DNA from: Limnohabitans sp. Rim8
GTDB taxonomy: Bacteria > Pseudomonadota > Gammaproteobacteria > Burkholderiales > Burkholderiaceae_C
NCBI GenBank assembly: GCA_945901045.1
Contig: CAMDKK010000007.1
Coordinates: 1-64,000 of the forward strand
Length of the DNA stretch: 64,000 bases
Direction: 5' to 3'
Position 1 is the stretch's first letter. Each line of letters opens with the position of its first letter. The translations under genes were made by a program, and so were the position numbers. Positions 2,386-55,932 of this stretch are shown here, in pieces. The notes beneath the pieces are model-generated. The model was not told where the DNA came from, made no database searches, and saw only the letters and a program-made list of their open reading frames with translations.

Positions 2386-3336
2386 TTATTCAGCCCAGTC
2401 GATGACCATCTTGAGGCATTGCGGATCACCAAAAGCGATTTCGTAGGCATGCTGTGCCTGCGCAGCTTTCTGCGTATGCGTAATCAAACCATCGAGGGGC
2501 AGACTTCCATCGTGAAACATGGTTACAACGGCATCCAGATCGTGTTTTTTCCATTGCGCAGCGACACGAATGGTGGCTTCGCGCATGAAGGCAGGTGCAT
2601 AGGCAAAAGACAGGTCTTGTTTGTAAAAACCCGCCAAAATTACTTCGCCAGCCGGTGCCATTTTGGGAATCACATGATTCAAAATGCCAGCGTCACCACT
2701 CACATCACAAATGCAGCGGTAATTTTTGCGCGTATCTTGGTCGGGATGTATCACCTCATAGCCCATGGCACCGGCTTGTCGAATGGCTTGTGTTTCCCAA
2801 ACCACCGGTGCGGGCTTTCCAGCAGCAAGCACCATGCGGGCCAACAGTCGGCCCATGATGCCGTGGCCAATGATCAAGTCTGGGTAGGCCAAAGATTCGC
2901 CTTCACGACCCACGGTGAAAACATGGTGTGCAGTTGCGGCCAAAGCCAATAACACGCCTTTGTTGCCCAAAGAGGGGTCCAATTTGACGGCGCGATCATG
3001 CGGAACGACCAAACGTGAGCCTGAGCCGCCAAATAGGTTTTGAACGCCTTGAAAAGCGTAAGAGCCCGGTATAAAAACCAGATCTCCTTTGTGCAATCCA
3101 GATACTTCTGCGCCCAGGTCTGCGATCACGCCAACGGTTTCATACCCCGGAACCAAGGGATAAGACAAGCCAGGAAAGGGGGGCATGGTGCCCTGCCATA
3201 ACAAGCGCTCAGTTCCTGTACTGATGCCACTGAAAGAGACGGCAACGTCTAAATCGAGTGGGCCCATGGGTGCAAGTTCGAGTTCTCGAACACACAAGGA
3301 TTTAGGGGCTTCAAAAACAATGGCTTTGGCTTTCAT
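2386..3336 (-). CDS. bchC: BchC paralog (bacteriochlorophyllide dehydrogenase), extra copy
   Basis: A 316-aa protein of the BchC family, which oxidises the 3-hydroxyethyl group of bacteriochlorophyllide a to 3-acetyl. The family is a zinc-free relative of medium-chain dehydrogenases. It shares with the second BchC of this window (8112-9065) the N-terminal SGIST..ER.LW block, the YPL(V/I)PG(Y/F)ETVG block, the nucleotide-binding stretch DLIIGHG(I/V)MGRLLAR and the C-terminal CLKMV(I/L)DW, so it is a true paralog and looks intact. It stands alone on the minus strand, outside the crtEF-bchCXYZ operon. No PpsR-type palindrome is visible upstream, which suggests different control from the operon copy. 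Which copy supplies the activity, or whether this one has another substrate, cannot be told from sequence. Confidence 0.88.
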   Translation of the reverse strand: MKAKAIVFEAPKSLCVRELELAPMGPLDLDVAVSFSGISTGTERLLWQGTMPPFPGLSYPLVPGYETVGVIADLGAEVSGLHKGDLVFIPGSYAFQGVQNLFGGSGSRLVVPHDRAVKLDPSLGNKGVLLALAATAHHVFTVGREGESLAYPDLIIGHGIMGRLLARMVLAAGKPAPVVWETQAIRQAGAMGYEVIHPDQDTRKNYRCICDVSGDAGILNHVIPKMAPAGEVILAGFYKQDLSFAYAPAFMREATIRVAAQWKKHDLDAVVTMFHDGSLPLDGLITHTQKAAQAQHAYEIAFGDPQCLKMVIDWAE

Positions 3337-3496
3337 GAGGACAATTCTGAATTAAATAAAAGTGGACCTTGTTACAGTCTGCGAAAAGTTCATGGCTTAA
3401 AAGTTAAAACTTTCACCCACGCTGCCAGCACAGTTGTGTCCAAGGTTTGGCTTTCATAATATGATCATGTCATTGAGTTTGCAAGTCCGTGATCGT

Positions 3497-4447
3497 ATGA
3501 ATAAATTCCTAGATTGGGGTGGCGTTTTGTTGGCAAGTGCGTTTTTATCTGTGGGCGTTCTGTACGGTTTGTGGGCACCTGATTTGACGTTGTCCGAACT
3601 CAGGCAGCGTTATGGTTCTGCTTCCCAGCAGGTCGTGGATGTTGATGGACTGCAGATTCATTACAAAGATACAGGCCCTAAAGATGCGCCCGTTCTACTG
3701 CTGTTGCATGGGTTTGGTTCAAGCCTGCAAACTTGGGACGCTTGGTCTGCCCAGTTGGAGCGGCATTACAGAGTCATCAGGCTCGATTTACCTGGCTTTG
3801 GGCTGACCGGCCCTAGCCCGGTTCATGATTATTCAGAGCAAAACGATCTGGCCACATTAACGCATTTTGTGGACAAGTTGGGCTTGTTGAACTTTTCAAT
3901 CATCGGCCACTCGATGGGTGGAAAAATGGCCTGGAGCCTGGCTGCCTCAGTGCCAGATCGCGTCAAGGCCTTGGTTCTGATGGCCCCTGATGGTTTCCCT
4001 GATACCAAAGACATTGGCACCAAGCCTTATGCAATGCCTTCGATCATGGGGGTGATCAAGTATTCTTTGCCTAAATACTTGGTTCGAAAATCAATTGAGC
4101 CCGCTTTTTTTGATGCCAAAGCTTTGGATGACAATCTGGTTAACCGTTACTACGACATGCTCAGAGCGCCTGGTGTTCGTGCCGCCATTTTGGAGCGGGC
4201 GAATCAAACGATTTATACAGATCCAGTGCCGCGTTTAAGAAAAATTACAGCACCCACCTTGCTCATTTGGGGTGAACAAGATCAGATGATTCCCAGCAGC
4301 AATGCCCAAAGCTATTCAAATGTACTGGCGCTTTCTCAAACCATGCTGCTGCCCAATTTAGGCCACTTGCTTCAGGAGGAGCAGCCTGATGTGGGTGTGA
4401 AACTCGTGACTGATTTTTTAAATGCAACGCTGAAACGGACAAATTAA
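3497..4447 (+). CDS. Membrane-anchored alpha/beta hydrolase
   Basis: An alpha/beta-hydrolase-fold protein (316 aa from the ATG at 3497; ATGs at 3461 and 3467 are alternatives). Residues 8-26 form one hydrophobic N-terminal helix. The fold signature is clear: oxyanion-type LLLHGFGSS near residue 70, nucleophile Ser139 in GHSMGG, likely acid Asp262 (WGEQDQ) and His290 (NLGHLL). Substrate unknown. PGCs often carry bchO, a hydrolase-fold accessory of Mg-chelatase, but this protein has an N-terminal membrane helix and a generic hydrolase sequence, and I do not see BchO-specific features. It may be a lipase or esterase-like enzyme that happens to lie here. Confidence 0.8.
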   Translation: MNKFLDWGGVLLASAFLSVGVLYGLWAPDLTLSELRQRYGSASQQVVDVDGLQIHYKDTGPKDAPVLLLLHGFGSSLQTWDAWSAQLERHYRVIRLDLPGFGLTGPSPVHDYSEQNDLATLTHFVDKLGLLNFSIIGHSMGGKMAWSLAASVPDRVKALVLMAPDGFPDTKDIGTKPYAMPSIMGVIKYSLPKYLVRKSIEPAFFDAKALDDNLVNRYYDMLRAPGVRAAILERANQTIYTDPVPRLRKITAPTLLIWGEQDQMIPSSNAQSYSNVLALSQTMLLPNLGHLLQEEQPDVGVKLVTDFLNATLKRTN

Positions 4448-8064: not shown

Positions 8065-8108
8065 TGTAAATAAAGTTTGACACATTGAACTGTAAGATTA
8101 AAAATACA
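8065..8108 (+). promoter_or_regulatory. Pair of PpsR/CrtJ operators and bchC promoter
   Basis: Palindromes TGTAAATAAAGTTTGACA (8065-8082) and TGTAAGATTAAAAATACA (8091-8108), both TGT-N12-ACA and exactly 8 bp apart, lie between crtF and bchC. TTGACA at 8077-8082 serves as a -35 box, with an A/T-rich -10 candidate (TAAAAA) at about 8099-8104. The second palindrome ends only 3 bases before the bchC ATG, and no Shine-Dalgarno sequence is visible there, so a transcript from this promoter would be leaderless or nearly so. The layout copies the bchC operator pair described in Rhodobacter. Confidence 0.85.
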
Positions 8109-8111
8109 CCC

Positions 8112-9065
8112 ATGAAATCTACAGCCGTTGTTTTTAGCAGACCCAAGGAATTGTCCTTACAGGCGCTCGAACTGCCCCAGGTGCAGGCAGGTCAATTGGA
8201 GTTGGCTGTTCAGTACAGTGGTATCAGCACCGATGCCGAACGCATGTTGTGGGATGGGAGCATGCAAGCCTTTGCAGGCGTGGGTTACCCACTGATACCC
8301 GGTTTTGAAACTGTGGGCCAAGTGGTTAAGGCACCTCAGGGGGCCAAACTCAAAGAAGGCGACATGGTTTTCGTGCCAGGTGCCAATTGCTTTTCCGGTG
8401 TCAAAAGTATGTCTGGAGGGGCCGCATCTCGATTGGTGGTGTCGGATCAAATCGTTGTGCCGGTGTCTGATGTGCTGGGTGTGGACGCCGTATTGTTGGC
8501 CCTTGCCGCAACTGCTTATCACGCTGTTTCAGGCGGGGGTATTGATGCGCCATTCACGCCGCCCGACCTGATCATTGGTCACGGCGTGATGGGCAGATTG
8601 TTGGCGCGTCTCACGGTAGCCGCAGGATGTCCTGCGCCGACCGTTTGGGAAACACAAGCCGAGCTGGCCTCAGGCGCCCAAGGCTACGAAGTTATTCGTC
8701 CAGAGGACGACTCTCGCAAAGACTACAACGCCGTTTACCACATGAATGGCGATACCTTTGATTTGGATCAGTTGATCCAAAGAATTCGGCCTGGTGGCGA
8801 AGTGGTGTTGGCAGGTCTTTACAAACATGGACTGCAGTTCTCTTACTCGCCAGCATTCAGCAGGGAGGCGCGAATTCGTGTTTCCTCCGAATGGAAGAGG
8901 CCCGATTTACTGGCTGTGAATGAACTGGTCAACCGCGGTCAGCTTTCTCTCAAAGGCTTGGTCACACACGTGCAAGCATTTCAATCTGCTAACGCTGCCT
9001 ATGAGACGGCGTTTGGAGATATTTCTTGTCTCAAGATGGTTCTGGACTGGAGCGCTCACGCATGA
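8112..9065 (+). CDS. bchC: 3-hydroxyethyl bacteriochlorophyllide a dehydrogenase BchC
   Basis: The operon copy of BchC (317 aa), which makes the 3-acetyl group in the last steps to bacteriochlorophyllide a. Nucleotide-binding stretch DLIIGHGVMGRLLAR, N-terminal SGISTDAERMLW and C-terminal SCLKMVLDW are shared with the paralog at 2386-3336. The ATG at 8112 is supported by alignment with the N-terminus of the paralog (MKxxA(V/I)VF..PK.L). It sits in the standard crtEF-bchCXYZ order and its stop overlaps the bchX start (ATGA at 9062). Its own operator pair lies immediately upstream. Confidence 0.94.
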   Translation: MKSTAVVFSRPKELSLQALELPQVQAGQLELAVQYSGISTDAERMLWDGSMQAFAGVGYPLIPGFETVGQVVKAPQGAKLKEGDMVFVPGANCFSGVKSMSGGAASRLVVSDQIVVPVSDVLGVDAVLLALAATAYHAVSGGGIDAPFTPPDLIIGHGVMGRLLARLTVAAGCPAPTVWETQAELASGAQGYEVIRPEDDSRKDYNAVYHMNGDTFDLDQLIQRIRPGGEVVLAGLYKHGLQFSYSPAFSREARIRVSSEWKRPDLLAVNELVNRGQLSLKGLVTHVQAFQSANAAYETAFGDISCLKMVLDWSAHA

Positions 9066-20032: not shown

Positions 20033-20851
20033 CTATTTGGCAGCAAAACTCTTGAGCAATGACACGACTTCCTGCGCGTTATTAGAAATCGCGTCAGCGT
20101 CAAACATATCGGGCGTCGCTTTAATCAACATGAAAATGGGACCGCCTAAGAGCACCTTGACATTGGGATTGCCTGAACTCATTTTGAGCTCTTTAACCAG
20201 CGATTTCAATTCAAGCAATTGAGATTCAATGGCGACAGAAATGCCAATCACATCAAACCATTCGTTGGCAACAGCGCGAACAAGTTCTTCTTGGGTGGAT
20301 GAAACTTCAATCACCACGCTTGCACCCTCTCTTCTGAATAAATCCCCCACAATGGTGGCACCCAAAAGATGCGATGAGCCCGGCGCGCAGCACATCATGA
20401 CATTGGTTTTATCACCCTTGCCGTGTTGGCCCTCACGAAACTCATAGCCCAGGCGGTATATAACTTGGTGCATGACGGCCAGGCCACAAGTGACCTCTGC
20501 GAAGCTGCACAAGTCCTTGTCCCAAAGCGAGCCCAAGTGTCTGGCTGCTGGGCTGATCAATTCTAAAAAGATTTTTTCTTGTGCAAATCCTTGTGCGATC
20601 AGAGTGTCCACAATGTGGTTCACACGCAAAGAATCGCCATTCCGACAGGCATCAGTGAAGTCACTGAATTCAGGTAAGGCTACTGCATCGGCGCCTGAAA
20701 CCTCTGGGGAGGCCAATCGTTCGTTGTAATGTTGGGAATTCAAAAGCCTGGGAATGAGTTGCTTCCCAATCACATCCTCAAGATACTCTTTGCACTCATC
20801 ATTTGCGGATTCTTGAACACTTAATCTATGCAAGCTATTCAATTTAGTCAT
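20033..20851 (-). CDS. AerR/PpaA-like B12-binding regulator (copy 1)
   Basis: A 272-aa protein with a helical N-terminal half and a C-terminal cobalamin-binding Rossmann-like domain (about 148-270). Family features are LGSLW (106-110) followed by Glu119 and His128, the PGSSHLLG loop with His161 in the cobalt-facing position, a beta-strand GISVAIES and the LLGGP loop near 235. Members such as AerR and PpaA use B12 to sense light and modulate the repressor CrtJ/PpsR. No DNA-binding domain is seen. The gene lies directly downstream of ppsR on the same strand, which supports this job. A second copy (22583-23404) lies on the other side of ppsR. Confidence 0.85.
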   Translation of the reverse strand: MTKLNSLHRLSVQESANDECKEYLEDVIGKQLIPRLLNSQHYNERLASPEVSGADAVALPEFSDFTDACRNGDSLRVNHIVDTLIAQGFAQEKIFLELISPAARHLGSLWDKDLCSFAEVTCGLAVMHQVIYRLGYEFREGQHGKGDKTNVMMCCAPGSSHLLGATIVGDLFRREGASVVIEVSSTQEELVRAVANEWFDVIGISVAIESQLLELKSLVKELKMSSGNPNVKVLLGGPIFMLIKATPDMFDADAISNNAQEVVSLLKSFAAK

Positions 20852-21056: not shown

Positions 21057-22457
21057 TCAGGCGCTGGCGTCTGCGTCGGCATCGTTTTCTGATAAAACTC
21101 CGAATCTTCTGAGCTTGACATACAGACTTTGGCGCGAAAGTCCCAGCATTTCGGCCGCAGAGGCGCGGTTGTTGTGCGTCAGCTCGAGGGCCGCCTCGAT
21201 GCACATGCGTTCAATCGTATCGACGGTATCGCCTACGATATCTTTTATGGGCCTGCGGCCCACCAATTGCGACAATTCAAAAAACGGATTGGGCACTGCC
21301 GCAGAGGCCTGCACAGATGACTGTGAACGCCTATTTAAATCTCTCACGAACATCACAAAGAGTGGCTCTGGCTTGGCCAAAAAGACGCCGGAGATTTCAA
21401 CGGGCAGCGTCATGCCTGACAGTGTCCTCACTTCTGTGGCAAAGTTCCTGACTGGCTTTTGTTGTTTCAATGAGGTGTTGAGTACACCCCAATCCACTGC
21501 ACCTCGGATCAACCAACGTTCCAAGGGTTGGCCCACCACTTGTGACGCCGCCGTCAAGCCCAGTAGCGCCATGCCTTCTTCATTCACACTTTTCACAGTA
21601 CCAGAAAGGTCTGTCAGCAGCCATCCATCGGGGAAGTGCTCCATGGCTTCACTCAAAACCACGGTAGCGTCTGTATTCAGTTGAGAGGCGGCGGAGGGCT
21701 CGCGCTGGGTCAGGCGAACTAAAAATTGCGCCCCACCTTCTTGCCTGAATACATTGGCCGATACCGTCATGGGGGAGGGGCCCCCCAGAATGGTCGCCGA
21801 ACACATTTCAATTCTGCCGGTCGCGAGAGCGGTTTTGAGCAGGGATTGAACCTCGCCTTGACTTTCGGGCTTGAAGCACTCTCGGAAATCCCGACCTACC
21901 AGTCGTTTGCCAGCGTCTTTGAAAAGCGATTGGGCGCCTGCATTGGTTTCAATCAAACGGTATGAATGCGTATCCACCACCAACACTGCTTCGGGCGAGG
22001 TTTCGAAAAGGACGCGGTAACGTGCTTCAATGTGCCTGAGCCTCAGAAAATCACGCTCCATAGACTGCTGCGTTTCAACCAAGCGCCGTTGTAGTTCTGC
22101 AAGGCGCTCCAGGTTTCGTCCTAAGGCCAGTAGTTTGTTGTCTTTAAGCGCAACAGTGATGTATTGGATAGCCGCCTCACCGCCAGAGGGCAGGGGGTGA
22201 TTGACATGGCGCCAAAGTAGGCTTTGAGGTTCCGGTTGGATGACCAGTAAATCTTGAATTTTCCTTTTGCTTTCGGTGGTCACAGTGTCTATCCAACGCT
22301 TACCGAGCCAGTTATGGCAAGCCAAGGTCGCCATAGTGTCTTGTCCAGTTGACACATCCTCGATGAAGCCTTTGTCGCTGATGACCAGACTGACGTCCGA
22401 AACTAATCCCAATAGTTTGTTGAAATTAACATCATCAAGATCGGAAAAGTTCATCAT
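21057..22457 (-). CDS. ppsR: Photosynthesis repressor PpsR/CrtJ
   Basis: A 466-aa transcription regulator with an N-terminal PAS-like domain (about 10-115), a linking helix (115-145), further PAS domains (about 146-250 and 270-385) and a Fis-type helix-turn-helix at the C-terminus (about 421-455: NNRASAAEMLGLSRQSLY). Length and order match PpsR/CrtJ, which represses bch, crt and puf genes under oxygen by binding TGT-N12-ACA. Cys419 stands just before the helix-turn-helix, the place of the redox-sensitive Cys of CrtJ; I find no Cys around 249-251 to form the described disulfide. It has its own promoter with one operator, so autoregulation is likely. In some betaproteobacteria PpsR can also activate. 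Confidence 0.95.
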   Translation of the reverse strand: MMNFSDLDDVNFNKLLGLVSDVSLVISDKGFIEDVSTGQDTMATLACHNWLGKRWIDTVTTESKRKIQDLLVIQPEPQSLLWRHVNHPLPSGGEAAIQYITVALKDNKLLALGRNLERLAELQRRLVETQQSMERDFLRLRHIEARYRVLFETSPEAVLVVDTHSYRLIETNAGAQSLFKDAGKRLVGRDFRECFKPESQGEVQSLLKTALATGRIEMCSATILGGPSPMTVSANVFRQEGGAQFLVRLTQREPSAASQLNTDATVVLSEAMEHFPDGWLLTDLSGTVKSVNEEGMALLGLTAASQVVGQPLERWLIRGAVDWGVLNTSLKQQKPVRNFATEVRTLSGMTLPVEISGVFLAKPEPLFVMFVRDLNRRSQSSVQASAAVPNPFFELSQLVGRRPIKDIVGDTVDTIERMCIEAALELTHNNRASAAEMLGLSRQSLYVKLRRFGVLSENDADADASA

Positions 22458-22582: not shown

Positions 22583-23404
22583 TCACTCCGCCATAGAGGG
22601 AGCCGAAGCACGTGCAGCTTGGGTGACAATTTGAACGGTTTGGGCTGCGTCTTTATCCAGTAATGAAGTGCCAGTCCAATTCAGCGCGTCTGGCGAAAGG
22701 CAAGCCATTGGGCCGCCCACATATATTTTCAAATTCGGGTTGACCGTTGCTTTTCGCAATTCAGACACGGTCTTGTAGACGGCCTCTATTTGGCGGTCTG
22801 TTGAAATTGACAGCGCAACAGCATCAAACCAATCAGAAAGGAACATTCTTTTGAAATCTGCAATGTCTTGGGGGGCAGCGAGCATGACCCGCCAGCCGGC
22901 CTGACGGAAGAATTCACTCAACATAAAAGCACCCATCCCATGCTGCGAGCCAGGTTCAGTCATCAACAGCAGGCTCAAGCCATTCGATTTGCTCCCCCCT
23001 TCGGCCAAGAATTCTGTGCTGAAGTCGTGCAACGCGCGATGCAGGCGAGAAAAAGCGATGTTGATGTTGACAAAGTCCAACTCGTCCGTGGTCCAAAGTT
23101 CACCGATCAGTTTGGCGGACTTCGCAACGCCTTGGAGGTAAATATCCGCCAGGCTATGGCCTTGTCGACGCCAATTCATCATGATTTTGCGCGTCTCTTC
23201 CATGCTGTGAACAGCCGCTTGTGAAAGCAGTTTCACTTGGTTTTGATCGAGAACGGCTGGCTTGGCAAAGCTTTTGCCACCCACCAGGCGAGGGCCAGAG
23301 CCAAACCCGAGTTTGAGCCTGGTGTCCAGTGACCCCGAATTCCAATGTTTTTCTATTGAGGTATTCAATTTTTCAAATTTAAACTGAGCCACAGCGACCC
23401 CCAT
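22583..23404 (-). CDS. AerR/PpaA-like B12-binding regulator (copy 2)
   Basis: A 273-aa paralog of the gene at 20033-20851. It has the same architecture: helical N-terminal half, LIGELW (99-104) and LH at 121-122, then a cobalamin-type domain from about 143 with PGSQHGMG (His155), ALSIST and VGGP. Where copy 1 has Glu119 this copy has Asn113, so the cofactor pocket differs. It is divergent from bchF and upstream of ppsR on the same strand. This is the position of aerR/ppaA relative to crtJ/ppsR and bchF in Rhodobacter, so copy 2 is the better candidate for the classic AerR role. No strong ribosome binding site is visible before the ATG at 23404. Confidence 0.87.
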   Translation of the reverse strand: MGVAVAQFKFEKLNTSIEKHWNSGSLDTRLKLGFGSGPRLVGGKSFAKPAVLDQNQVKLLSQAAVHSMEETRKIMMNWRRQGHSLADIYLQGVAKSAKLIGELWTTDELDFVNINIAFSRLHRALHDFSTEFLAEGGSKSNGLSLLLMTEPGSQHGMGAFMLSEFFRQAGWRVMLAAPQDIADFKRMFLSDWFDAVALSISTDRQIEAVYKTVSELRKATVNPNLKIYVGGPMACLSPDALNWTGTSLLDKDAAQTVQIVTQAARASAPSMAE

Positions 23405-23550: not shown

Positions 23551-25340
<1,790 letters not shown>

Positions 25341-26926
25341 AGGAACCAGCGCCATGCAACTCACACTCTGGACTTATGAAGGCCCTCCCCATGTGGGTGC
25401 GATGCGAATTGCCACGGCCATGGAGGATGTGCATTACGTCTTGCATGCCCCACAGGGTGATACCTACGCCGATTTGTTGTTCACCATGATCGAGCGTTTG
25501 CAAAAGCGCCCACCCGTCACTTACACCACGTTTCAAGCCCGTGATTTAGGCGGTGATACCGCAGAGCTGTTCAAGACTGCAGCGCGCGAAGCCTTTGAAC
25601 GCTTCAAACCCAAAGCGATGTTGGTCGGTGCATCTTGTACAGCTGAATTGATACAAGATGATCCAGGCGGCTTGTGCAAAGCGCTCAACCTGCCCGTGCC
25701 TGTGGTGGCCTTGGAATTGCCTTCGTATCAGCGCAAAGAGAATTGGGGCGCATCGGAGACGTTTTATCAATTGGTTCGCAAATTGTCTTTGCCACTCGAT
25801 CAAATTGAAAAGACACAAAGCAGCAAACCGCGTTGCAATATTTTAGGCCCCACCGCTTTGGGTTTTCGACACCGTGATGACCTGACAGAAATTCGTAAAT
25901 TGCTCACGGACATGGGCGTCGAGATCAATGTAGTAGCGCCTTTGACTGCCACACCTGCAGACTTGGTTCGCTTGGCAGATGCGCAATTCAATGTGGTGCT
26001 TTATCCTGAAATAGCCAATTTGAGTGCACAGTGGCTACAACGACAACATGGACAAGCCTTTACCAAGACCATTCCGATTGGCACAAATGCGACGCGCGAC
26101 TTTGTTCGCGAAGTTGCCCAGTTGGCGGGATTGGCGCCCGAAATCGCCTTAGCCAACCTGGAATCTCGCGCTGCTTGGTATACCCGCTCCGTTGACTCCA
26201 CTTACCTCACGGGTAAACGTGTTTTTGTGTTTGGAGACGCGACACATGCAGTGGCTGCAGCCAAAGTGGCAGCGCAGGAAATGGGTTTTACCGTCGTTGG
26301 CATTGGCACATACAGTCGCGAGTTTGCCCGAGAGGTGCGTGATGCAGCCGCACTGTATGGCGTTGACGCTTTGATCAGTGACGACTATTTAGAAATTGAA
26401 GCACGGATCACAGAGTTGAATCCAGAGTTGGTGCTTGGCACCCAAATGGAGCGGCACATTGCAAAACGCTTAGGCGTTCCTTGCGCCGTCATTTCGGCCC
26501 CAGTGCATGTACAAGATTTTCCAGCACGCTATTCGCCTCAAATGGGATTTGAGGGTGCCAATGTGCTTTTTGACACTTGGGTTCACCCCCTGATGATGGG
26601 CTTGGAAGAACACCTGATTGGCATGTTTCGAGGTGACTCAGAATTTCACGAAAATGCCGCGCCTTCGCACTTGGGCGGTGGTGTGCATCAGCAATTGCCT
26701 CAGCTTGAAAGAGACATTCCAACGGTTGAACCTGTGCTGGTGGACGTGCCATCACAGCAGCAGGCAAAGAGCCAAAGTGCACCGAGCAACGCGGTTGCAG
26801 GGTGGGATGCAGGTGCTGAAAAAGAACTTAAAAAAATACCATTTTTTGTTCGGGGAAAGGCCCGCCGAAACACCGAACGCTATGCACTAGAACGCGGCGT
26901 GACGGTCATCACTACGGAGACTCTTT

Positions 26927-31629
<4,703 letters not shown>

Positions 31630-35811: not shown

Positions 35812-36888
35812 ATGCAACCCACCTCAACCATTGACAGTGCTGAAAAAGCATCCCAAAAAGCAGTCGAGAGCACCATGCTCAGTCCCCGCTTTTACACCAC
35901 AGATTTTGCGGCTATGGACAAGCTGGACATGTCCCCCATGCGAGCCGAGTGGGACAAAATGATGGCGGAATACGAGGGTGACAATAACCACGACCATTTC
36001 CAGCGTGACGCAGAATTTACCAAGGAAGTTGCCGAAAGATTTTCTCAAGTCAGCCCTGAAATGCGCCAAGAGTTTTTAGACTTTTTAATTTCTTCGCTCA
36101 CCTCTGAGTTCTCGGGTTGTATTTTGTACAACGAAATTTTCAGAAACGTTGAAAATCCCGATATCAAGCAATTGATGCGTTACATGGCACGCGATGAATC
36201 GCGCCACGCCAGTTTCATCAATCAGTCTCTTAAAGACTTTGGTCTGGGCATTGACTTGGGGGATTTAAAGCGCACCAAGGCCTACACTTATTTCAAGCCC
36301 AAATACATTTTCTACGCCACTTACTTGTCCGAAAAAATTGGCTATGCCCGTTACATCACCATTTACCGTCAATTGGAAAAAAACCCAGACAAGCGCTTTC
36401 ATCCTATTTTTCGTTGGTTTGAGCGCTGGTGTAACGACGAGTTTCGCCACGGCGAATCATTTGCATTGATCATGCGCGCCAATCCGCATTTGCTGCGCGG
36501 TGGTAATGTTTTCTGGATTCGGTTTTTCTTGTTGGCCGTTTACGCCACCATGTACGTGCGTGACCACACGCGCCCCATGCTGCACCAGGAGATGGGTTTG
36601 GAGTCGTCCACCTACGACTACGAGGTGTTTCGCATTACCAATGAAATCACCAAACAGGTTTTTCCGGTCAGCTTGGACATTGACAACCCTGTTTTCAGGG
36701 ACGGCTTGGCGCACTTGTTCCATGTGCAAACTCAAATGACTGCCGCCAAAGCCCGTGGTGGCTTGGTGGGCAACCTGCAGCGTGTGCGTTGGGCTATTTC
36801 AGGTGGCCTCACTTTCCTTCGCTTGTACTTTTTACCGGTCAAGCACCACGCGCTGCCAGTTGATGTTCGCATGGTGCCTGCTTGGTAA
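35812..36888 (+). CDS. acsF: Oxygen-dependent Mg-protoporphyrin monomethyl ester cyclase AcsF
   Basis: Di-iron oxidative cyclase (358 aa) that forms ring E of (proto)chlorophyllide using O2. The ferritin-like metal ligands lie in two helix pairs: E..E in [15 protein letters not shown], then [10 protein letters not shown], and [11 protein letters not shown]. The N-terminal [12 protein letters not shown] region is typical (here [14 protein letters not shown]). No gene for the anaerobic cyclase BchE is seen in the window, so ring E formation here seems to need oxygen. Confidence 0.96.
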
Positions 36889-50749: not shown

Positions 50750-51950
50750 AACATATGATGTGGTCGTAATTGGTGGTGGACCTTCTGGTGCCACTGCCGC
50801 AGATGACCTTGCTGGCCGAGGATGGAAAGTTTTGTTATTGGACCGTCAAGGCAGGACCAAGCCTTGCGGAGGTGCGATACCACCACGCTTGATCAAAGAC
50901 TTTGAAATACCTGATCATTTGTTGGTAGCCAAAGCACGCTGTGCAAGAATGATTTCACCCAAAGACAACAAAGTGGACATTCCAATTGAGAATGGCTTTG
51001 TGGGCATGGTCAACCGCGATGAGTTTGATGAGTGGTTGCGTGAAAGAGCACGCTCGCACGGGGCTCATCGTCTGAGGGGTTCATTTGAAAAAATAACCCG
51101 CGACGACGATGGCGTCGCACGCATTCATATCGCATTGCAATCGTCTTCCTCCTCTGGTGCACATTTCTCCGCCCCTGAAACCAAGAGTATTCGGGCGCGT
51201 TTTGTGGTCGGTGCAGACGGTGCCAAGTCTGAAGTGGCTCGACAAACTGTCAAAGGCGCTGAGCGCACCAAGTATGTGTTTGCTTACCACGAGATCGTGC
51301 GTGCGCCAACGCACCAAGCGGATTACGATGCTGACCGATGCGATGTTTACTACCGTGGTGCCTTGTCACCCGATTTTTACGGCTGGGTATTTCCACATGG
51401 CAACACCATGAGCATTGGCACTGGCAGCGCAGATAAGGGATTTTCTTTGCGAAGTGCAGTGACAAGGCTGCGCGAAACTGCAGGCTTGCAGAACGCTGAA
51501 ACATTGCGTCGCGAGGGTGCGCCAATACCCATGAAACCATTACCCTATTGGGACAATGGGAAGGATGTTGTGTTGGCTGGCGATGCTGCAGGTGTTGTAG
51601 CGCCGGCTTCAGGTGAGGGCATTTACTATGCCATGGCATGCGGTCGGATGGCGGCTGATGCGGTCGAAGAGGCCTTGACAACCGGCAACGCGTCTTGCCT
51701 CAAGAAAGCACGAAAAACATTCATGAAGCAACATGGAACGGTGTTTTGGGTGCTCGGCATCATGCAGTATTTTTGGTACCAGAACGACAAGCGACGTGAG
51801 AAATTTGTCACCATTTGCGAAGACAAGGATGTGCAGCAACTCACGTTTGAGTCTTATATGAACAAAGTACTGGTGAGAAAAAAACCAATGGCGCACGTAC
51901 GCATCTTTTTCAAAGATCTGGGGCACCTGTTTGGCTTTGTGAGGACATGA
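50739..51950 (+). CDS. bchP: Geranylgeranyl reductase BchP
   Basis: FAD-dependent reductase (403 aa) that reduces the geranylgeranyl tail of bacteriochlorophyll to phytyl in three steps. The dinucleotide motif GGGPSGATAADDLA is at about 10-23, KPCGGAIPPRLI follows, and GDAAGVVAPASGEGIYYAM is the second FAD block. AAGAAAGGA lies upstream. It overlaps tspO by four bases. Confidence 0.96.
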   Translation: MSTETYDVVVIGGGPSGATAADDLAGRGWKVLLLDRQGRTKPCGGAIPPRLIKDFEIPDHLLVAKARCARMISPKDNKVDIPIENGFVGMVNRDEFDEWLRERARSHGAHRLRGSFEKITRDDDGVARIHIALQSSSSSGAHFSAPETKSIRARFVVGADGAKSEVARQTVKGAERTKYVFAYHEIVRAPTHQADYDADRCDVYYRGALSPDFYGWVFPHGNTMSIGTGSADKGFSLRSAVTRLRETAGLQNAETLRREGAPIPMKPLPYWDNGKDVVLAGDAAGVVAPASGEGIYYAMACGRMAADAVEEALTTGNASCLKKARKTFMKQHGTVFWVLGIMQYFWYQNDKRREKFVTICEDKDVQQLTFESYMNKVLVRKKPMAHVRIFFKDLGHLFGFVRT

Positions 51951-52432
51951 TCATTTCAAATCGATTGTTCGGATTGACAATCGCATTGGGGTGTAGTTTT
52001 TTGGTCGCTTCTGTCGGCGCTTCATTGACAGAGATAGGGCCTTGGTACCTGGCCCTGAAGCAGCCGTCTTGGAAACCGCCTGATTTTGCCTTTGGCATCA
52101 TTTGGTCGGCTGTTTTTACATTGTGTGCTTTCAGTGGCTGGGGCGCATGGCAAGTTTCGAAAAACAGCGCACAGAAGTTTCGCATTGCTTTTTTATTTGC
52201 ACTGAATAGCCTGTTGAACATTCTTTGGAGTTGGTTGTACTTCAACCAACACCGACCAGACTGGGCCATGACGGAGTTGTATTTCTTGTGGGCCTCTGTA
52301 TTGCTGCTCATCGCAGGTTTGTGGCGCATTTCCAAAATTTCCAGTGCGCTGCTTGTGCCTTACTTGGTGTGGGTCACAACAGCGGGCTTCTTAAACGCTG
52401 CGACGGTTGAACTCAACGGACCCTTTGCGTAG
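51947..52432 (+). CDS. tspO: TspO/MBR family protein (CrtK)
   Basis: A 161-aa five-helix outer-membrane-type tryptophan-rich sensory protein. Typical residues are WYLALKQPSWKPP near 28-40, the WGAW and NSLLNILWSWLYF helices and NAATVELN at the end. In Rhodobacter TspO exports or senses porphyrin intermediates and tones down photosynthesis gene expression under oxygen. It ends the dxs-hemA-bchG-bchP unit. Confidence 0.94.
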   Translation: MIISNRLFGLTIALGCSFLVASVGASLTEIGPWYLALKQPSWKPPDFAFGIIWSAVFTLCAFSGWGAWQVSKNSAQKFRIAFLFALNSLLNILWSWLYFNQHRPDWAMTELYFLWASVLLLIAGLWRISKISSALLVPYLVWVTTAGFLNAATVELNGPFA

Positions 52433-52662: not shown

Positions 52663-53709
52663 ATGGAATACGACCACACCATGTTAGCGAATGACTTTTC
52701 TGCGCCTGAGACAGTTGGCCCTTCTTTGCGAGTGCTCTTGCTGGGTGCCACGGGCACGATCGGTTTGGCTACGGCGCAGGCATTGATAAAGCGTGGGCAT
52801 GAGGTGGTTTGTTTTGTGCGGACTCGCAAAGGTGGAGAGAAGAGATTTGGGGGAGACCTCAAGGCATCGCCTTTACACGGGACAAGGATTCGTTATGGTG
52901 ACCCCACCAACCCTGAGTCCTTGACGCGCGATGGTTTCGCACAGGAGGGTTTTGATGCGGTGATTTCATGCATGGCCTCCAGAACCGGTAGCCCTCGAGA
53001 TGCCTGGCGGGTAGACCATCAAGCCCATGTTGATGCACTCGAAGCGGCTCAAGCTGCAGGGGTCAAACACTTTGTATTGCTCTCGGCGATTTGCGTCCAA
53101 AAACCATTGCTGGCCTTTCAGCATGCCAAGCTCGCTTTTGAAAAAGCCTTGATAGAGTCAGGACTGACCTACTCCATCGTACGTCCGACAGCCTTCTTCA
53201 AATCTTTATCAGGTCAATTGGAACGGGTGAAAAAAGGCAAACCCTTTTTAATCTTTGGTGATGGTCAGCTCACCGCTTGCAAGCCGATCAGTGACCATGA
53301 TTTGGGTGATTTCATCGCCAGCTGTTTGGATGACCCGGGTCGGCATAACCAAGTCTTGCCGATTGGCGGCCCAGGCCCCGCCGTTACGCCGCGTCAGCAA
53401 GGTGAGTATCTGTTTCAATTGCTGGGAAAAGAGCCCCAATTCAAAAGCGTGCCTGTTGGTTTTTTAGACTTTATCATTGGTACTTTAAGTTGGATTGGCA
53501 AACTCATTCCCGTCGTTGCGGACAAAGCGGAACTGGCCCGCATTGGTCGCTACTACGCAACGGAGTCCATGCTGGTGTGGGATGCCTCATCGAATCGTTA
53601 CGACGCCCAACTCACGCCATCGCATGGCACGCAAACATTATTTGAGGCCTATGAAATGTGGGTGAGCGGGCAAGCTGCGCCAGACAGAGGCGAGCATGCT
53701 GTTTTTTAA
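52663..53709 (+). CDS. bciA: Divinyl (proto)chlorophyllide 8-vinyl reductase BciA
   Basis: NADPH-dependent 8-vinyl reductase (348 aa) of the atypical SDR (NmrA-like) type. The Rossmann motif LLGATGTIGLATAQAL is at about 23-38, and the family block SRTGSPRDAWRVDHQAHVDA...KHFVLLSAICVQKPLLAFQ is unmistakable. It reduces the 8-vinyl group of divinyl (proto)chlorophyllide, so the F420/Fe-S type BciB is not needed. ATG at 52663 without a clear ribosome binding site; ATG at 52681 is an alternative. It is convergent with the LPOR gene, with 19 bases between the stops and no terminator visible. Confidence 0.93.
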   Translation: MEYDHTMLANDFSAPETVGPSLRVLLLGATGTIGLATAQALIKRGHEVVCFVRTRKGGEKRFGGDLKASPLHGTRIRYGDPTNPESLTRDGFAQEGFDAVISCMASRTGSPRDAWRVDHQAHVDALEAAQAAGVKHFVLLSAICVQKPLLAFQHAKLAFEKALIESGLTYSIVRPTAFFKSLSGQLERVKKGKPFLIFGDGQLTACKPISDHDLGDFIASCLDDPGRHNQVLPIGGPGPAVTPRQQGEYLFQLLGKEPQFKSVPVGFLDFIIGTLSWIGKLIPVVADKAELARIGRYYATESMLVWDASSNRYDAQLTPSHGTQTLFEAYEMWVSGQAAPDRGEHAVF

Positions 53710-53728: not shown

Positions 53729-54724
53729 TTAATCTGCCATGCCTACAAGCTTGTTGCTGAGTTCCCACAACCGAATGCCCATCGTCAACTGAGTCGCTTT
53801 GGCAGACAAAGGCTGGGCAAACGCCTGGCGACCGGGGACTTGGCGGTTGCCCCAGCTCCAATGCACACCTGATGCGCAGAAATCCTTGTCAACCAGTACT
53901 TGTGCCACGCGCTGCCCAGCCAAGGTTTGGGTGACGTAGCCCTTGGTGATGTTTTTTTGAAACCAAGGAAAGATGGTTTGAAAAGCCTTGGGTGTGTCGC
54001 GAAACAATGCCGTATCTGCCACGCACCCAGGATAAACCGTGCTGAAGATAATGCCGGTGTTGTCGTGGTAGCGACGGTGCATTTCACGGCTGATGATCAT
54101 GTTGCACAACTTGCTGTCTTTGTAGGCCTTGCCGGCTTTGAAAGTCTTCCCATCAATCATCGCAATGGGATCATGAAAGCCTTGTTCCAGACCTGCGAGA
54201 TCCCCCAGATCGGCGGGTGCGGGAATCGGCACCTTGCCACCAAATTCTTCAGAATTGGCCGTGACTGTGCCCAAGGTCACCAGTCTTGATTGAAAATTTG
54301 GCTTGAATTCTTGTTCAGAAGTTTGTGTTTGGATGAGCAAGGGCATGAGCAAACGGCTTAGCAAAAAATGCCCCAAGTGGTTGGTTGCAACGCTGAGTTC
54401 AAAGCCCTCTGGTGACCTGGCGGGTGTTTTCAAGCGCGGCTGATAACTGGCTGCGTTGTTGAGCAGTGCGTGCAGTGCAAAGCCCTTGGATTCAAAGTTT
54501 TTCACAAACTCGCGAACGCTTTGCAAAGAGCCCAAGTCCAATTGCATGATGCTGAACTGTGTGGGATTCAATTGCAGTTCAGATGCAACCCGCCTTGCTT
54601 TTTGTGAATCTCGGCAGGCCATGACAACATGCCATCCCTGTTGGATGAGGGCCTCAGTGGCGTAAAGCCCTACGCCTGAAGAAGCGCCCGTGACGATGAC
54701 GTGGGGTTGTTGAGTGGTTTTCAT
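53729..54724 (-). CDS. por: Light-dependent protochlorophyllide oxidoreductase (LPOR)
   Basis: SDR-family enzyme (331 aa) with sequence specific to light-dependent POR, which reduces protochlorophyllide to chlorophyllide with NADPH and light. NADPH site [15 protein letters not shown] (12-26), NNAA (89-92), the catalytic pair Tyr201 and Lys205 in YKDSK, and Cys234 in YPGC, placed 33 residues after the Tyr exactly as the active-site Cys of cyanobacterial POR. The C-terminal blocks [13 protein letters not shown] and [11 protein letters not shown] and [11 protein letters not shown] are POR hallmarks not found in ordinary SDRs. The PGC also encodes full DPOR (BchLNB). LPOR is standard in cyanobacteria and plants but rare in purple bacteria, so horizontal origin is likely. 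No PpsR site and no clear ribosome binding site upstream. Confidence 0.92.
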
Positions 54725-54792: not shown

Positions 54793-55470
54793 TCAGTGCT
54801 TTCTTTGGGCACGGGAATAGCTGTGCACTGCGTCTACCACTACAGCCGCATGATCAGGGGGTGTGAACTGACTGATGCCATGGCCGAGGTTGAAAATATG
54901 CGTGGGGCCAGAGCTGTTGGGGTCTGTATGGGGCGTTCCAAAGCTGTCAAGAACTTTGAGTACCTCTTGTTCAATGGCAGAGGCATGGGCAAACAACACA
55001 TTCGGGTCTAAATTACCTTGTAGCGCTTTGCCAGCTTGACCCGCCAAACCGCCAACAACTTGCCGTGCCTTCGCAAGATTGACGGTCCAATCGAGGCCCA
55101 AGACGTCTCAGTCCAGTCTGTTCATGTCTTCCAGCCACAACCCGCCACCTTTGGTGAACACAAGACGGGGGACCGTGTGACCTTCATGGCTGCGAATCAA
55201 TTGGTCGAGCACCCGCCGGGTGTAAGCCAAACTGAATTTTCGAAACGCGCCTTCTGCCAGGACGCCGCCCCAACTGTCAAACACCATCATCACTTCGGTG
55301 GCAAAGTCGACATTGGTGGCCAGTCCCATGAAACTGCCCGCCTTTACACGCGTAGCGCAGTATTCAGGCAAGTAGCGTCCCGATTGCCGCATCAGCCAAA
55401 AGGGGGTGTGGTTGGTGGCTTGCCGCATGCAAGCCTTGAGGAATGTGTTGTTTTGAAGAGGTGTGACCAT
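54793..55470 (-). pseudogene. hemE: Decayed uroporphyrinogen decarboxylase gene (hemE remnant)
   Basis: Reads as UroD over 225 codons, against about 360 in intact enzymes. Residues 1-60 match the N-terminus ([11 protein letters not shown]), then at the join near 55290 the frame jumps to VFDSWGGVL of the C-terminal half; roughly 140 codons, including the catalytic Asp region, are missing in frame. A TGA at 55108-55110 then interrupts the frame at a position that is normally Cys (next residues DVLGLDWT). The end, HIFNLGHGI, is intact. Both lesions would abolish activity, so a working hemE must lie elsewhere. It lies behind LPOR on the same strand. Confidence 0.88.
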
Positions 55471-55932
55471 GCGATCTGAAAAATTTTAGAGTTTGGATCA
55501 GAGGCGGCGCGCTGGTATGGTGGCATGCCATTGGGCAAGACGGCTTTCTCGTGTGGCAATAGTCAGTTGTGTTGTCGTGAAATGAGATGGATTTTTCAAG
55601 GCATTTTACAAATGGAAGAAGGCGAAATGTCATTGTTTCATTTTTTTCTGTGGCATCGCTTACACAGCAGGTCAGTCAAAATCTAGCCATCAGGGTTTGA
55701 GGCTTATTGATCGCATGGCTTTTTGAGGTGAGCACTCTCAAACGGTTTCGCAGCAGAGGTAAACAAGCCCTTCACGGAGAAGTAAAATACCGTATTCATT
55801 CAAGCGATCCGCCACCACCCACAAAAGCGCTTAAATCCCTATCAATACTGGGTTTTAAGCTGATGCACAATGCTCATATCTCTCAAATAGATATCCAATA
55901 AGTTCATTTCTAACGTTGACGATTTAAATCTT
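55471..55932. other. Intergenic stretch between the hemE remnant and ccmA
   Basis: No gene is supported. A 64-codon frame on the plus strand (55707-55901) has no ribosome binding site, no recognisable family and a start in unremarkable sequence. The right end must hold the ccm promoter; A/T-rich DNA at about 55880-55930 is the best place, but I cannot name boxes with confidence. No PpsR-type palindrome is seen. Confidence 0.5.

Follow-up and report, generated by a model that had tools for sequence, protein, structure and literature searches.

The locus studied here encodes two enzymes for the reduction of protochlorophyllide, which raises the question of what the light-dependent one is, where it came from and whether it still matters beside the other. 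NADPH:protochlorophyllide oxidoreductase (LPOR), familiar from plants and cyanobacteria, uses light to reduce the C17=C18 bond of protochlorophyllide, to which it transfers a hydride taken from NADPH together with a proton. In the 64,000-nucleotide stretch of DNA from the lake bacterium Limnohabitans that was analysed as a whole (hereafter the window), its gene lies in the same photosynthesis gene cluster as bchL, bchN and bchB, the genes of the customary dark enzyme DPOR, which is sensitive to oxygen (Table 1). In the available part of their paper, Chernomor et al. (2020, PMC7947762) count 36 LPORs outside oxygenic phototrophs, naming Limnohabitans sp. 15K among those previously reported. The first-pass annotation of this DNA, according to which LPOR occurs in "a few" aerobic anoxygenic phototrophs (AAPs), was thus an understatement. 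For 10 of the 11 AAP LPORs examined, the same text reports activity in one or both of two assays; it adds that the Burkholderiales LPORs still await testing, none of them being assayed in the part available. The pairing of LPOR with DPOR is already published for the genus, and the window LPOR is a further member of that published set. What is new here is the history of the gene, namely the company of a second bchC and the decay in close relatives.

Table 1. Features discussed in the text, with their positions in the window and the evidence for each.
Feature	Position	Strand	Evidence or remark
bchC2, second divergent bchC, opposite end of cluster from LPOR	2386..3336	minus	TIGR01202 387 bits (cut-off 291); tree; neighbours
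alpha/beta hydrolase, BchO-like	3434..4447	plus	TIGR03056 102 bits, below cut-off 172.55
bchC1, ordinary bchC ahead of bchXYZ	8085..9065	plus	TIGR01202 370 bits
ppsR/crtJ regulator	21057..22457	minus	TIGR02040 394 bits
bchN (DPOR)	24051..25340	plus	TIGR01279 505 bits
bchB (DPOR)	25240..26958	plus	TIGR01278 620 bits; model match starts at 25354
bchL (DPOR)	30721..31629	plus	TIGR01281 445 bits
acsF, oxygen-dependent Mg-protoporphyrin monomethyl ester cyclase	35812..36888	plus	TIGR02029 465 bits
tspO	51947..52432	plus	PF03073 121 bits
probable bciA (C8-vinyl reductase)	52663..53709	plus	convergent with LPOR, ORFs 19 bp apart; NAD_binding_10/NmrA
LPOR, light-dependent NADPH:protochlorophyllide oxidoreductase	53729..54724	minus	331 aa, intact; TIGR01289, 6l1h, fold match to PORs
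hemE2, 3' piece, broken, TGA in frame	54796..55295	minus	DNA alignment to G014 hemE2; TIGR01464 119.9 bits
hemE2, 5' piece of the same gene, middle missing	55290..55451	minus	DNA alignment score 192 (no shuffles of its own); TIGR01464 51.4 bits
hemC2, remnant of start, ~73 nt	55518..55590	minus	DNA alignment to G014 (15K) hemC2

The coordinates of the LPOR frame and its length of 331 aa had been given exactly, but the minus strand had gone unmentioned; frame 1 of the plus strand contains several stops across 53729-54724. In a profile search, the protein scored 446 bits against the equivalog model TIGR01289 (cut-off 331.35), with the second-best NCBIfam model 320 bits lower and the runner-up protein of the same genome at 77 bits, below the cut-off; a match of this strength is well outside what chance would give. 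The POR of T. elongatus (6l1h) matched the protein with an E-value of 6.8e-125. Tyr201, Lys205 and Cys234, the last lying 33 residues past Tyr201, are present as claimed, and so are the two blocks described as specific to PORs ([13 protein letters not shown] from residue 252 and [11 protein letters not shown] from residue 285). These three residues align with Tyr193, Lys197 and Cys226 of 6l1h (numbering counted on the alignment) and, together with the TGxxxGxG NADPH motif (Thr12, Gly13, Gly17 and Gly19), are identical in 84 of 84 LPOR rows. An AlphaFold model of the protein (mean pLDDT 87.1, pTM 0.90) was compared to the PDB with Foldseek. The best ten matches were all PORs (E 2.4e-41 to 1.1e-33, TMt 0.91-0.96) and general SDRs started only at E 1.5e-13, so that the predicted fold is closest to solved PORs. 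As judged from its sequence, the window gene is a genuine LPOR standing beside a complete DPOR.

The likeness to the T. elongatus enzyme in fold, Tyr/Lys pair and Cys226 is accompanied by two differences. The four cysteines highlighted for LPORs are taken here as T. elongatus residues 37, 89, 199 and 226. Three of them are retained in the window LPOR (as cysteines 37, 207 and 234), but the Cys89 position is occupied by Asn, leaving the four-cysteine set of cyanobacterial and plant LPORs incomplete. This Asn is found in 11 of 11 genus rows and in 12 of 49 other non-cyanobacterial rows, against Cys in 24 of 24 cyanobacterial rows. Secondly, the loop at about residues 131-145 exceeds that of T. 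elongatus and of the two cyanobacterial rows compared by 8 residues. Both differences would fit an LPOR-derived SDR acting on another substrate. However, the available text of PMC7947762 states merely that the four cysteines are "supposed" to take part in substrate binding. Because of this wording and the recurrence of Asn in other non-cyanobacterial rows, Cys89 was not counted as defining an LPOR. A change of substrate is also argued against by the conserved catalytic positions, by a score far over the LPOR equivalog cut-off, by the location of the gene in a bch cluster and by the counting of genus-mate 15K as an LPOR in the available part of PMC7947762, and is considered very improbable.

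Next, the origin of the gene was assessed in a tree of 84 LPOR rows without an SDR outgroup (a distant SDR that was tried had an end branch of length 10). For this tree, row L014 was trimmed from 621 to 335 aa and a stop in L019 was read as X; its 24 cyanobacterial rows are those among the matches listed. Seven duplicate loci were merged. With respect to placement among LPORs or general SDRs, the window protein is nested among the LPORs in this tree without outgroup. It groups with G052, G014 and G074 (100/100) within a genus clade of 11 rows (100/98), whose neighbours are two Gemmatimonadota rows and one row each of the Comamonadaceae and the Burkholderiales. The nearest LPORs, from a Burkholderiales MAG (89% identical) and from Limnohabitans sp. 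15K (88%), both belong to the genus of the window. According to the part of PMC7947762 that is available, AAP LPOR as a whole is held to derive from picocyanobacteria, which would speak for a recent, direct gain of the window gene from a cyanobacterium. Such a gain is contradicted by the tree, in which the 24 cyanobacterial rows form one side (100/97) and the window sits inside the genus LPORs, and is scarcely credible. The acquisition by transfer put forward in the first-pass annotation could therefore apply to the distant past only, as the window protein is placed among proteobacterial and Gemmatimonadota rows, next to other Limnohabitans and not beside a cyanobacterium.

Among the better-known systems, Dinoroseobacter shibae also carries an LPOR as an aerobic anoxygenic phototroph, and this DsLPOR is reported as active in the available part of PMC7947762. 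Unlike the window, its host is alphaproteobacterial, and the two are set side by side by description, not by sequence. The Polynucleobacter LPORs are likewise betaproteobacterial and located in a bch cluster (beside bchL-bchB-bchN in L063 and L067), but they form a separate LPOR branch, 61-63% identical to the window protein, with one bchC over the cut-off in the L063 genome (G099, the sole genome examined).

As claimed, bchL, bchN and bchB are located in the same cluster, each scoring over at least one equivalog cut-off (TIGR01281, TIGR01279 and TIGR01278, respectively). BchB exceeds the TIGR01278 cut-off of 490 and falls below those of two other BchB models, NF002790 (804 against 912) and NF002789 (440 against 509). 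In addition, bchX, acsF, bchH, bchG and bchP of the window each exceed at least one curated cut-off, and two further genes, presumably pufL and pufM, were named without a model. The genetic rule for AAPs given in the available text of PMC7947762 comprises DPOR, a type II reaction centre, AcsF and/or BchE, and the lack of RuBisCO and/or PRK; DPOR and AcsF were matched by model. No BchE over the cut-off was found in the window's own genome (94% complete), the single match reaching 61 of 481 bits. Since AcsF is present, the step before protochlorophyllide probably needs O2, and the isocyclic ring would probably be closed by the oxygen-dependent AcsF alone. The absence of bchE is described as common among AAPs in the part of PMC12654162 that is available. 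The proposed formation of chlorophyllide in the dark at low oxygen is thus limited by the probable oxygen need of the AcsF step.

The protein encoded at the end of LPOR matched no NCBIfam model over its cut-off; Pfam assigned NAD(P)H-binding, epimerase and NmrA domains, and the PDB gave weak matches to other reductases, with no BciA model or structure matched. It is listed as probable BciA. Within 2.5 kb of LPOR, an alpha/beta hydrolase gene was the commonest of 17 genes sought, occurring in 17 of the 42 non-cyanobacterial loci among the matches listed. In the genus, this hydrolase gene is divergent from bchC2 or from LPOR.

To follow the fate of the gene, 90 genomes of the genus were searched. 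LPOR is present in 11 (E 1e-60) and bchB in 60 (E 1e-100), of which 59 are over the cut-off. Nine of the 11 LPOR genomes carry bchB, the other two, G052 and G063, being 89% and 82% complete. A draw of 399 family genomes gave matches to LPOR at E 1e-90 in at least three, the own genome included; this is a lower bound, since at most five candidates were scored per genome. Ten genomes of the genus carry bchC2. Six of these have an LPOR without stop, G058 has one in-frame TGA, and remnants are left in G042, G071 and G072. In G042, 134 nt of the start of LPOR are fused to about 180 nt of its end, beside bciA. Between bchC2 and bciA, two LPOR pieces are found in G072 and one in G071, with local alignment scores of 35-49 against shuffle maxima of 24-30. 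A second remnant in G071 was dropped, as 772 of 1000 shuffles reach its score, and the 5' remnant alone counts. A 32-nt match in G053 was also rejected as chance, since it falls within a transporter-like frame and is not surrounded by LPOR sequence. The four genomes with a stop or remnants all retain bchB without stops; of the two enzymes, it is therefore LPOR that is lost in the set examined. Limnohabitans thus provides a natural series of intact, stop-bearing and deleted LPORs beside the same DPOR for asking what LPOR is worth.

These losses would also suit an LPOR, active now or once, that no longer matters in the window, DPOR doing all the work and the gene being on its way out. The state of the genes before LPOR points in the same direction. 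In Limnohabitans sp. 15K (G014), which resembles the window in having bchL, bchN and bchB in the same cluster and LPOR between bciA on one side and hemE, followed by ccm genes, on the other, hemC2 and hemE2 are whole, unlike in the window, where both are broken. In both 15K and G052, the whole hemC and hemE precede LPOR on its strand, and each genome has second full copies elsewhere; G074 retains a remnant of hemC2 and a hemE2 divided between two frames. Compared to 15K, the 3' piece of hemE2 in the window gave a DNA alignment score of 560 (maximum of 100 shuffles, 27) and the hemC2 remnant a score of 67 (maximum of 100 shuffles, 35). The two wrecks stand between LPOR and the ccm genes (54796-55590). 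A single complete copy each of hemE (C40) and hemC (C92) is present in the own genome. The window LPOR outlived these neighbours. Against a gene on its way out, the window copy is intact, 10 of the 11 genus copies (E 1e-60) carry no stop, and dN/dS towards the three nearest relatives is 0.11-0.14, a blunt measure that misses recent decay, with the stop-bearing LPOR of G058 giving 0.14-0.15 as well. Overall, an LPOR that has ceased to matter is regarded as somewhat unlikely.

The order of the genes differs between genomes. In G024 (2KL-51), bciA, LPOR, bchC2 and the hydrolase gene are continuous, whereas the window has bchC2 and the hydrolase gene at one end of the cluster and bciA and LPOR at the other. 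Circular permutation of the photosynthesis cluster was rejected as unneeded. G000, G014, G074 and G052 agree with G024, G071, G072 and G058 in the end of the cluster that is flanked by the ccm genes, so that moving the bciA-LPOR pair suffices; the ccm genes are turned round in G042. At the other end of the cluster, G014 and G042 have flanks in common, the four G024-type genomes share others and G074 matches neither well. No paper on circular permutation of photosynthesis gene clusters was found in the open-licence literature.

The second bchC is associated with LPOR within the genus, all 10 bchC2 genomes found there carrying LPOR or its remains. BchC1 and BchC2 of the window are 52% identical and both exceed the TIGR01202 cut-off; the bchC of 21 other Limnohabitans loci is 67-72% identical to bchC1 and 56-58% to bchC2. 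Nine of the 10 genus copies of bchC2 are full-length (83-100% identity) and that of G068 is partial (82%). Among the 60 bchB genomes, full-length LPOR occurs in 7 of 10 with bchC2 and in 2 of 50 without (stop-bearing G058 counted; Fisher p 1e-5, which ignores kinship and genome incompleteness). Outside the genus, two bchC over the cut-off were present in six of 10 LPOR-bearing genomes, one in three and a partial one below the cut-off in one, the 10 non-cyanobacterial loci being hand-picked and all chosen for having LPOR. A BchC tree was constructed without an outgroup; some genes are in it twice with different ends (e.g. L190), none of them in the bchC2 clade, and the partial G068 copy (175 aa) was omitted. 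One clade (100/96) unites the nine full-length genus bchC2, one copy each from five of the outside genomes with two bchC, and both copies of G090. Among the titles listed from the open-licence literature, none concerned a second bchC accompanying LPOR or the loss of LPOR from AAPs.

The link between LPOR and bchC2 may simply reflect the shared descent of one lineage of photosynthesis clusters, having no functional meaning. The bchC2 genomes of the genus constitute two related clades, so the Fisher test overstates independence. Distances of LPOR and bchC2 in 12 genomes correlate strongly (r 0.88, reached by none of 5000 permutations), yet plain vertical co-descent would also give such a fit. 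Moreover, bchC2 persists after the loss of LPOR in G042, G071 and G072, and in the window about 50 kb separate the two genes. On the other hand, kin of bchC2 are located 103-104 bp from LPOR, in divergent orientation, at L029, L037 and L039, all three outside the genus, and bchC2 and LPOR share a strand in G024, with 2 nt between them if the first ATG is the start of LPOR. On balance, shared descent is a fairly probable account of the link. The link names a second gene to test alongside LPOR.

Regulation by PpsR was considered from its binding motif. The plain motif TGTN12ACA has 25 matches in the window against 18.8 expected, a number reached by 10 of 100 shuffles, and therefore the plain count proves nothing. 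Two of these matches lie near LPOR, at 53752 (inside the gene) and at 55649 (upstream of the hemE2 wreck and less AT-rich). AT-rich versions occur at nine positions (5827, 5853, 8065, 8091, 22521, 23454, 23479, 23675 and 45029), compared to a mean of 2.2 and a maximum of 6 in 50 mononucleotide shuffles, which is a weak control. None of these nine sites in the window is beside LPOR, and a weak PpsR-like site with one mismatch is found at 55593. It is a guess that the window LPOR may escape PpsR. An exact AT-rich site precedes bchC2 in Limnohabitans sp. 15K (828387), and another is located between LPOR and the hydrolase gene in G027 (2873); therefore, PpsR is not without a hold on the module taken as a whole. 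The ppsR gene itself is flanked by two genes for proteins with B12-binding domains, at 22583-23404 and 20033-20851 (minus), which we take to resemble AerR/PpaA regulators.

Based on these data, it is highly probable that the window gene encodes a working photoenzyme beside DPOR, shares its inheritance with the LPORs found in other freshwater Burkholderiales, in which it was accompanied by the second bchC, and is a conditional and dispensable extra, intact here and decayed in some sister genomes, each of which retains bchB. The enzyme would bind NADPH and protochlorophyllide, and once the pigment has absorbed light, the hydride and proton would be transferred and the resulting chlorophyllide would go to BchXYZ. 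DPOR would perform the same step in the dark with ATP and iron-sulfur chemistry. LPOR would most likely be used in light and air beside DPOR, and from sequence data we infer that it is active, expressed and beneficial in lit, oxygenated water. Against this explanation stand the broken hemC2 and hemE2, the relatives that have lost LPOR and the replacement of Cys89 by Asn. According to the available part of PMC12654162, light is reported to inhibit bacteriochlorophyll (BChl) synthesis in AAPs, which counts against LPOR working in light and air; continuous pigment production in light is noted there for D. shibae and two other species. Some AAPs thus keep a light-only enzyme even though their BChl synthesis is reportedly light-inhibited.

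A broader reading would be that LPOR spreads in freshwater Burkholderiales as a small "light module" that brings along a BchC isozyme (bchC2), frequently bciA and, in this lineage, duplicates of hemC and hemE. In the lineage of the window, LPOR would have moved away from PpsR-governed promoters, hence allowing BChl synthesis in light and air at times when the ordinary route is closed. This reading is unlikely, the PpsR sites of 15K and G027 counting slightly against it. If it were true, the decay of LPOR beside an intact DPOR would be the sign of lineages that had abandoned daytime pigment synthesis.

Two observations were made in the wider set of loci. In the Baikal-deep-G100 MAG (L023/L014), the LPOR frame lacks a stop and extends over about 290 further aa, which resemble, by eye, an intradiol dioxygenase; this may be a fusion, a lost stop or an assembly error. 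In the Polynucleobacter-type loci L063, L067, L070, L072, L074 and L078, LPOR is located 25-50 bp from bchL, followed by bchB and, where the locus is long enough, by bchN, and in the picocyanobacterial loci L091, L094, L098 and L099 it lies 1.5-1.9 kb from a bchL homologue. The similarity of these neighbourhoods is perhaps due to convergence.
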